Below, piece after piece: positions 6,390 to 13,684 of a stretch of DNA of 64,000 nt (the stretch's first letter is position 1; each line of letters starts with the position of its first letter). The notes under the pieces were generated by a model, which was given only the letters and a program-made list of their open reading frames with translations, made no database searches and was not told the origin of the DNA. Origin of the DNA: Treponema sp. (GTDB lineage Bacteria; Spirochaetota; Spirochaetia; Treponematales; Treponemataceae); assembly GCA_016286365.1 (NCBI GenBank), contig JAEESN010000009.1, forward strand, positions 1 through 64,000, in the 5' to 3' direction. The position numbers and the translations under genes were made by a program.

Positions 6390-7133
6390 ATGTCAGGACA
6401 TAGTAAATGGGCCACCATTAAACATGCAAAGGGTTTGGCCGATGCAAAACGTGGTAAGATTTTTACCAAATTTATTAAGGAAATTTCTATTGCTGCACGT
6501 ATGGGTGGTGGAGATCCTAACTCTAACCCTCGTCTTAGAACTGTAATCATCAAAGCTCGTGCTGCTAATATGCCTAAAGATAACATTGAACGTGCTATCA
6601 AAAAAGGTACCGGTGAAGACGGTGGAGCAGCGTACGAAGAATACTTATACGAAGGTTATGCTCCTGGTGGTGTAGCTGTAATGGTAGAAGTTCTTTCAGA
6701 TAACAAAAACCGTGCAGCCGCAGACGTAAAAAATATTTTTGCAAAGAACGGTGGAAACCTTGGTACTTCTGGATCTGTATCACGTATGTTCCAGAGAAAA
6801 GGTACAATCGAAATCGATGCAGAAAAAGCTTCTGAAGATGAAGTAATGGAAATTGCTCTTGAAGCTGGTGCAGACGATATCGTAAACGAAGACGGAATTA
6901 TCACAGTAACAACTGCTCCTGATGCATTCACTGCTGTTGCAGAAGCATTACAGGATAAAGGAATCGAAACACTTTCTGCTGATGTAGGAATGGTTCCTGA
7001 TGCATATACTCCAGTAGATAAAGATACAGCTGCAAAAGTTCAGCGCCTTATCGACCGCCTCGAAGACAACGACGATGTTCAGAACGTATATCACACCGCT
7101 GAATATCCAGACGACTTCGTGCCAGAGGAGTAA
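6390..7133 (+). CDS. yebC: YebC/PmpR family protein
   Basis: MSGHSKWATIKHAKGLADAKRGKIFTKFIKEI signature; SD aaggag. Confidence 0.97.
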   Translation: MSGHSKWATIKHAKGLADAKRGKIFTKFIKEISIAARMGGGDPNSNPRLRTVIIKARAANMPKDNIERAIKKGTGEDGGAAYEEYLYEGYAPGGVAVMVEVLSDNKNRAAADVKNIFAKNGGNLGTSGSVSRMFQRKGTIEIDAEKASEDEVMEIALEAGADDIVNEDGIITVTTAPDAFTAVAEALQDKGIETLSADVGMVPDAYTPVDKDTAAKVQRLIDRLEDNDDVQNVYHTAEYPDDFVPEE

Positions 7134-7320
7134 TAATAGCAAAAGCGTTAAAAAAAATCACGAAGACTTGGAGCGATTTTTTAGCTTTTACCTTTATAAC
7201 AATAGCAACTGCGTTAAAAAAAATTGCGAAGACTTGGAGCATTTTTCTAGCAGTTACCTAATTTAATAGCAGAATCGTTAAAAAAAATAGCGAAAACATG
7301 GAGCAATTTTTTAGATTCTA
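7134..7320. repeat. Three tandem ~65-bp imperfect hairpin units
   Basis: Units share core GTTAAAAAAAAtNNCGAAgACtTGGAGCnaTTTTTtAG, flanked by different but complementary hexamers: AAAAGC/GCTTTT, AACTGC/GCAGTT, AGAATC/GATTCT. Confidence 0.85.
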
Positions 7321-7351
7321 CTTCTTACTAAAGAAAACACTTTTCTTTATT

Positions 7352-7390
7352 GAAAAACTCGTTCATAATATATGTGGACGGGTTTTTTCA
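7352..7390 (+). terminator. Probable rho-independent terminator
   Basis: GAAAAACTCGTTCATA ... TGTGGACGGGTTTTTTC hairpin (with G-U pairs) plus T-tract. Confidence 0.5.
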
Positions 7391-7413
7391 TTTTAAAAAC
7401 AAGGAGTAAAAAA

Positions 7414-8010
7414 ATGTTTGGAAAAAATGATAAGGAAAATGAATTAAGAAAAATAACTGAAGAAAAAAAGAATTCGTTATTTACAGAATCAGACGATGAC
7501 ATTAGCGGAGAGAATAATTACATCCAGGGAGCTGTTGGAAGCCTTGTTGGTGCTCTGTTAGGCTCTGTTATCTGGTTTTTAATCGGTATGGTTGGCTTTT
7601 ATGCTTCTATTGCAGGTTATGCAATTGCATTCTGTGCATTTAAAGGCTATCAGCTTATGAAGGGAAAGCTTACCCGAGTTGCCGTTGTAATCAATATTGT
7701 GGCAATGCTCGTCGCTTTTCTTGCCGTAAATTATCTTTCATATTTTTATGCAATCCACAAAGAAGTTCCAGATCTTACTTTAAAAGCTTTCGGACAGGTG
7801 TTACCAATAATCATCCGCGAACCAGAAGTTTTAAGAGAAATCTGTTTGAATCTTGGACTTGGTTTACTCTTTATGCTTTTAGGTTCTTACAGGACAATCA
7901 AAGAATGCTTTGACTTTATTAAAAAGAAGGAAGAAAAGAATAACGTTCAGGATAATCCTGTTATAGAAGATAATTCATTAGACAAGACTGATTCAAAAGA
8001 AAGCGAATAA
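7414..8010 (+). CDS. Membrane protein of unknown function
   Basis: ATG at 7414 has SD aaggag; several hydrophobic segments; charged C-terminus. Confidence 0.6.
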   Translation: MFGKNDKENELRKITEEKKNSLFTESDDDISGENNYIQGAVGSLVGALLGSVIWFLIGMVGFYASIAGYAIAFCAFKGYQLMKGKLTRVAVVINIVAMLVAFLAVNYLSYFYAIHKEVPDLTLKAFGQVLPIIIREPEVLREICLNLGLGLLFMLLGSYRTIKECFDFIKKKEEKNNVQDNPVIEDNSLDKTDSKESE

Positions 8011-12963: not shown

Positions 12964-13239
12964 ATGTTTGATTTTACTCCAAATTTCTCAAATGAATATA
13001 ATGTTGGTGCTTTTGATGCAAAGACTTTTTTCTCTGAGTTTCTACGCAAAGTTCAGGAAGGAGCAGTAATCAATATTTCTAAAAACGGAAAGAAAGTTGC
13101 AGTTCTTAAAGGGGTAAATAAAGTTTTAAATGAAGATGCACTCGATGCACACAAGCGTATTATAAATCGAAGAAAATCATATTCATCTCTTTCAATTTCG
13201 GAAATAAGGGAGCTTAAAAATGAAGGAAGAAAGTATTGA
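12964..13239 (+). CDS. Type II antitoxin, Phd/prevent-host-death-like
   Basis: SD aaaggaggtg; 'NVGAFDAKTFFSEFLRKVQEGAVINISKNGKKVAVL' matches Phd-type N-terminus; overlaps downstream toxin by 20 bp. Confidence 0.75.
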   Translation: MFDFTPNFSNEYNVGAFDAKTFFSEFLRKVQEGAVINISKNGKKVAVLKGVNKVLNEDALDAHKRIINRRKSYSSLSISEIRELKNEGRKY

Positions 13240-13684
13240 TTCTTTTCCTTGTATTGTAACCGACACTTCTTTTATAGCCTCTTATGTTCTAAACGGATTC
13301 ACTGATGATGAGTTTCCGGATTGTGTAAAAGATATTGAATACGTATTAAATAACAATGGACAGTTTTATGTTCCCCCTTTATTCTGGTACGAGATAGAAA
13401 ATGTTTTACTTTATAAAACCAGAGCTTTTAAATCAAATGTTTCGGGAAAAAAGAAAACTATTCTATCTGTATCTGATGCAATGGATATTATGTATGATTT
13501 AAGCCAGCTTCCTTTTTATACAGACTGTCAGCCTGATACTCAGATTCGTCAACGTATTTTTTCTATTGCAAAAGAATTCAATCTTTCTTATTACGATGCT
13601 TCCTACCTTGAACTTTCAAGACGTTATAACATTCCTCTTAAAACTTATGATGAAGATCTTCTTAGGGCAGTAAAAAAGTCATAA
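13220..13684 (+). CDS. PIN-domain toxin, VapC family
   Basis: VTDTSFIASYV, WYEIENVL, LSYYDASYLELSRRYNIPLKTYDEDL acidic PIN motifs. Confidence 0.82.
   Translation: MKEESIDSFPCIVTDTSFIASYVLNGFTDDEFPDCVKDIEYVLNNNGQFYVPPLFWYEIENVLLYKTRAFKSNVSGKKKTILSVSDAMDIMYDLSQLPFYTDCQPDTQIRQRIFSIAKEFNLSYYDASYLELSRRYNIPLKTYDEDLLRAVKKS

Follow-up and report, generated by a model that had tools for sequence, protein, structure and literature searches.

A hairpin array downstream of yebC is part of a high-copy REP-like DNA palindrome family in gut Treponema

In this study, we report that an array of three hairpins located directly after yebC, in the 64,000-nucleotide stretch of Treponema sp. DNA analysed here (the window; contig JAEESN010000009.1), is a local part of a high-copy, REP-like DNA palindrome family in gut Treponema. 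The repeat was found in high copy number and was nearly restricted to one genus; its stems covary strongly, and its copies at stop codons are oriented one way. The array itself is probably made up of three tandem copies of a short, dispersed, REP-like and non-autonomous palindromic DNA repeat. An earlier, sequence-only reading of the array had proposed that a folded RNA or single-stranded DNA was either under selection or served as a copying intermediate, and had considered a REP-like mobile palindrome; both proposals gained support from the many dispersed copies, the strong covariation and the position at gene ends. The literature searched contained no earlier description of this family, which does not prove that none exists.

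Architecture of the array and covariation of its stems

The yebC gene (YebC/PmpR family regulator; 6390-7133, plus strand; NCBIfam NF001030, E 1.3e-106) ends with a stop codon at 7131-7133, and the array begins one base further on. Its three units were read from the sequence and are matched on the minus strand, which is the strand modelled, by covariance model R1, built from an alignment of 26 copies. Unit 1 (7135-7193; R1 match 80.1 bits) is composed of an outer stem (7141-7146/7184-7189), an internal loop (7147-7151/7183), an inner stem (7152-7161/7173-7182) and a terminal loop (7162-7172). The same parts lie at 7207-7212/7250-7255, 7213-7217/7249, 7218-7227/7239-7248 and 7228-7238 in unit 2 (7201-7259; 76.4 bits), and at 7271-7276/7314-7319, 7277-7281/7313, 7282-7291/7303-7312 and 7292-7302 in unit 3 (7265-7323; 79.9 bits). 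The six outer hexamers reported from the sequence were confirmed at 7141/7184, 7207/7250 and 7271/7314, each pair being exact reverse complements, and the unit spacing of 66 and 64 was recovered by an independent repeat search, the copies being 79-84% identical.

Each unit of ~59 bp combines an outer stem whose sequence is free, an asymmetric internal loop that is fixed, and an A/T-rich inner hairpin. Read along the modelled strand, which is the minus strand in the window, a unit consists in turn of 8 bp of outer stem, T, ~10 bp of inner stem, the loop, the inner stem again, the TTAAC region and the outer stem. What had been described as a GTT bulge is indeed kept, but is really an asymmetric internal loop, with GTTAA on the 5' side and A on the 3' side in gene sense; this GTTAA/A loop is unpaired and was retained in nearly all copies (alignment A1 and the own-genome copies). 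Both stems covary, and the inner hairpin and terminal loop differ freely between subfamilies, so that the loop CGAAgACtTGGAGC, previously taken as constant, marks one subfamily only, the inner hairpins of other copies being quite different. A CsrA-type reading of the GGA in this loop was dropped because the loop is not conserved across the family.

The stem covariation in the repeat family is overwhelming. Among the 26 related copies, two-sided changes were seen in 10 of 18 pairs, giving 55 two-sided cells against 17.3 ± 3.0 in shuffled data, counts in which the cells are not independent and the copies share ancestry; pairing fell from 92.5% to 40-56% when the 3' partner was slid by 1-3 columns. 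Two-sided changes extended to 14 of 18 pairs both in 39 own-genome matches (138 two-sided cells versus 33.9 shuffled) and in 59 distinct copies from other genomes (131 versus 41.8). When folded singly, units were little better than shuffled sequence on the plus strand (RNA z -0.3 to -1.4) and folded better on the minus strand (RNA z -3.5 to -4.6; DNA z -1.4 to -2.9).

The earlier statement that the array resembles no terminator or riboswitch held, as no Rfam match at gathering score was found in the whole window and no terminator pattern was detected; Rfam 15 at a relaxed threshold returned only weak matches far below the cut-offs, with nothing near cut-off for the elements. Intrinsic or antisense terminators are a very unlikely explanation, even though A and T runs flank the inner hairpin, with a T run that is longer on the minus strand, and one copy lies 3' of a gene (at L161) whose terminator it could be. 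The terminator scan called none at the array, the T run falls mostly within the stem with the outer stem coming after it, copies also occur inside operons, and here three units in a row precede a separate hairpin with a T run. This imperfect hairpin and T run (7353-7389, plus strand), recognised by eye only and not called by the terminator scan, is probably the yebC terminator, an assignment made with low confidence; a hairpin with a T run was found 3' of yebC in most orthologues. Directly downstream of the array lies a membrane-protein-like ORF without an NCBIfam match (window 7372-8010), and further along the window (12964-13684) two overlapping small ORFs resemble, by eye, a Phd/YefM-type antitoxin and a PIN-domain toxin.

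Distribution of the family and placement of its copies

The loop motif of the units was also present elsewhere in the own genome and in sister genomes. A genome-wide covariance-model search, which the sequence-only reading had suggested, gave 42 own-genome matches at E<=10, with E below 0.001 for 35, from at most 150 candidates scored. Within the genus, 95 of 196 species genomes had R1 matches; these are gut/rumen Treponema, T. bryantii and T. porcinum among them. At most 28 candidates were scored per genome; most of these passed in many genomes, and copy counts there are therefore to be read as "at least". Outside the genus, matches were found in 4 of 80 genomes, at 1-2 copies each. An exact pattern scan of an 85,462-species collection located 46 loci, all in Treponema or unnamed spirochaetes and again including T. 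bryantii and T. porcinum. A phage origin was rejected, the exact stem-and-loop pattern having no match in viral contigs in a scan that would miss diverged copies. Tandem arrays with a period of 59-66 bp occur repeatedly, and units within one array can carry identical stems (L123), which suggests that the yebC array, with three different stems, is old or was assembled from different copies.

With ORFs of at least 120 aa considered, 25 of 162 distinct placements put the gene-sense start of the element between -10 and +5 relative to a stop codon, these 25 representing ~13 genes and including orthologous sites from several species, while the opposite orientation at stop codons was seen in 2 placements (sign test over genes, p=0.007). 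The stop codon is often the TAG within the element foot. The identities of YebC and SufB were checked among the genes ending in the element; others, judging by their C-termini, presumably include dnaK, an ammonium transporter-PII fusion, glpK, asd and a sugar ABC permease. Other copies sit within broken copies of tRNA-Pro and tRNA-Glu, and further ones within attC-like sites of a chromosomal integron.

Several of these loci have a complex organisation. Upstream of an intact tRNA-Pro gene, a tandem array of truncated tRNA-Pro copies (L142:3060-3940; G000:C12) has each copy split by palindromes, including a yebC-type hairpin in the anticodon-arm region. A second, larger element (L001:1460-1620, G000:C3; L142:2750-2900, G000:C12) has the same CGAARACNTGGAGC loop in its first hairpin, carries additional hairpins with CAGGA(C/T)G-type loops, and has ends that are inverted copies of the neighbouring tRNA 3' end (tRNA-Gln, tRNA-Pro). 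At L051:998-1360 (G175:C39), a 5S rRNA gene is followed by three same-loop hairpin copies, each of which has a copied 5S 3' end and a T run at its terminus.

Comparison between genomes showed that the element is absent from the same genes in most species, both at the yebC and at the sufB end. Its presence was scattered on the yebC tree, which is weakly resolved (6 changes versus a shuffled mean of 7.1), and genomes G050 and G052 have identical YebC, yet the element follows yebC in one and an unrelated palindrome in the other. This unrelated palindrome (GGTTTCGACAGGCTCAACC type; L165 and L215, in sister genomes) was found 3' of yebC in G050 and 3' of another gene, and occupies the same kind of place as the yebC-array element. 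The sufB end carries the element in 3 of 30 genomes compared, in one of these as a tandem pair, and most of the other genomes have different or very short spacers; in G052 the outer stem AAACTC is retained and the inner hairpin altered. Several species have an identical outer stem at the same gene, indicating that much of the distribution is vertical inheritance. For the copies, no target-site duplication was defined and no movement observed, which counts against a mobile REP-like reading. Copying of the outer stem from the target gene was also considered and rejected: sufB ends lacking the element do not contain the arm sequence.

Nature of the complementarity and comparison with known families

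In a helix selected as RNA, one strand should show fairly common G-U pairs and rare A-C pairs. For Treponema RNase P RNA, the values were 10.4% G-U, 0.7% A-C and 3.6 two-sided changes per one-sided change. The element, whose copies share ancestry and whose structure was derived differently from that of RNase P, had 0.6-2.9% G-U and 0.5-3.4% A-C, by strand and set and without consistent strand bias, and showed ~28 two-sided per one-sided change on the modelled strand and 4.4-10.5 on the complement. Since G-U is far below the RNase P level and about as rare as A-C, the complementarity looks mostly like that of a DNA palindrome rather than an RNA helix, and the structured ncRNA array entertained by the earlier reading is disfavoured by the scarcity of G-U pairs.

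The main competing explanation is a cis-acting mRNA element, an RNA-selected 3'-UTR hairpin that would determine how stable a polycistronic mRNA is, or how it is partitioned, through the binding of a protein or RNase to its internal and terminal loops. It is favoured by the one-way stop-codon orientation, including that inside the sufB-sufD operon, by the conserved internal loop and the terminal loop conserved in one subfamily, and by one G-U pair that recurs, on the gene-sense strand, at the inner-stem base, the sole feature leaning to RNA. We consider it unlikely, given the G-U and A-C frequencies above, gene-sense single units that fold no better than shuffled sequence, copies outside mRNA 3' ends (tRNA fragments, attC-like sites), and the same genes without the element in most species.

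It is very unlikely that the units are quasipalindromes perfected by replication template switching, in which fold-back copying equalises the arms without selection or a mobilising enzyme. Two-sided changes far exceeding one-sided ones (~28:1 on the modelled strand, 4-10:1 on the complement) and the near lack of G-U intermediates agree with such copying, but it should erase the unpaired GTTAA/A loop, which persists, and it leaves dispersal to many loci and the stop-codon orientation unexplained. One intermediate stem, AACTGC/GTAGTT in G131, does exist, the only one seen.

The suggested link with a REP-associated transposase was checked and not found. Y1_Tnp genes, including RAYT-like ones, occurred in 17 of 51 copy-rich genomes versus 46 of ~143 others (p=0.86), Y1/RAYT thus not tracking copy number, and the 5 kb surrounding the own RAYT-like gene (L277:2021-2866, which scores below the NCBIfam cut-off) contained no R1 match. 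IntI above cut-off was found in 13 of 32 copy-rich genomes versus 25 of 86 others, a difference that was not significant (p=0.27). Across the genus genomes compared, neither distribution points to a mobiliser. A chromosomal integron with a full-length integron integrase was identified (L278:3011-4237, L143, L160; G000:C31, C1), in which small ORFs are separated by attC-like sites of ~130-150 bp with a hairpin copy in the variable part.

That the repeats are integron attC-like recombination sites, or attC parts spread by the integron integrase, is highly improbable. The own genome encodes a full-length integron integrase, attC-like sites between small ORFs hold several of the copies in their variable part, and hairpin structure is kept over sequence, as is the logic of attC sites, including those of Treponema integrons (PMC3607928). 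However, attC sites carry RYYYAAC on their 5' arm and GTTRRRY on their 3' arm, an arrangement not found here. The gene-sense strand has GTTAA on its 5' arm and the opposite strand has TTAAC on its 3' arm; the box that bears GTT belongs to the 5' arm, and neither strand offers an AAC in attC order on the complementary side. In addition, 19 of 32 copy-rich genomes are without IntI, and copy number has no significant IntI association.

GTAG REPs are short high-copy palindromes 3' of genes that often supply a TAG stop codon (PMC3733652), and GTAG REPs/REPINs have alternative complementary stem residues, a bulged imperfect palindrome in one group, and clusters or tandem groups (PMC3733652, PMC8266576). 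The Treponema repeat is likewise a high-copy intergenic palindrome 3' of genes, and the TAG of its foot is often used as the stop codon. It differs in its gene-sense feet, which read AATAGC, AATCGA, AATGGA, TGTAGC and CGTAGA, GTAG being confined to a few loci, among them sufB and asd; in its far more variable stems; in the near absence of G-U, G-T pairing being reported as frequent in GTAG REPs; and in that no RAYT adjoins or is associated with its copies, whereas a cognate RAYT flanked by repeats typifies GTAG REPs/REPINs. CGTC REPs, including Rickettsia palindromic elements, are without a dedicated transposase and have been reported in Spirochaetes (PMC3733652). The Treponema repeat, also palindromic and without a dedicated transposase, has an internal loop and a two-storey stem and no CGTC tag, in contrast to the CGTC/TGTC tag, single 8-9 bp stem and 4-5 base loop of that group. 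MITE-like repeats (ERIC, NEMIS, EFAR) are intergenic, lie near genes, and may fold in mRNA and alter its stability (PMC3733652, PMC1590033); MITEs are mobilised via recognisable terminal inverted repeats, whereas the outer arms here are free in sequence. The Treponema repeat family thus lacks the defining marks of GTAG REPs, CGTC REPs and attC sites.

Proposed history and significance

The most likely history of the repeat is spread as a non-autonomous folded-DNA palindrome, with retention at stop codons and local tandem duplication. Copies would have spread as non-autonomous DNA via a folded single strand, which would explain why complementarity and the internal loop are kept and the sequence is not, and tandem arrays would have come from later local duplication. 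With less certainty, insertion at a stop codon may be tolerated, and a hairpin placed there may shield mRNA segments or keep them apart, a role reported for REPs, so that copies such as those of yebC and sufB could be retained as 3'-end hairpins. By this analogy, an effect of the element on the mRNA 3' end or its stability is plausible. A more far-reaching and rather unlikely possibility is mobile DNA of a class for which folded shape is all that is recognised, with stems of any sequence around GTTAA/A, attC-like and independent of IntI and the known HUH/RAYT transposases, the arms being rewritten at or after insertion by hairpin-directed copying.

The Treponema repeats add a palindromic family to a genus for which our literature search found no description of one, and provide a natural data set of stems that keep complementarity but not sequence. 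They make testable the long-open question of what maintains REP-like palindromes: RNA function, an enzyme acting on folded single-stranded DNA, or template-switch repair. Their placement at stop codons is also relevant to the tolerance or use of hairpins where ORFs end.
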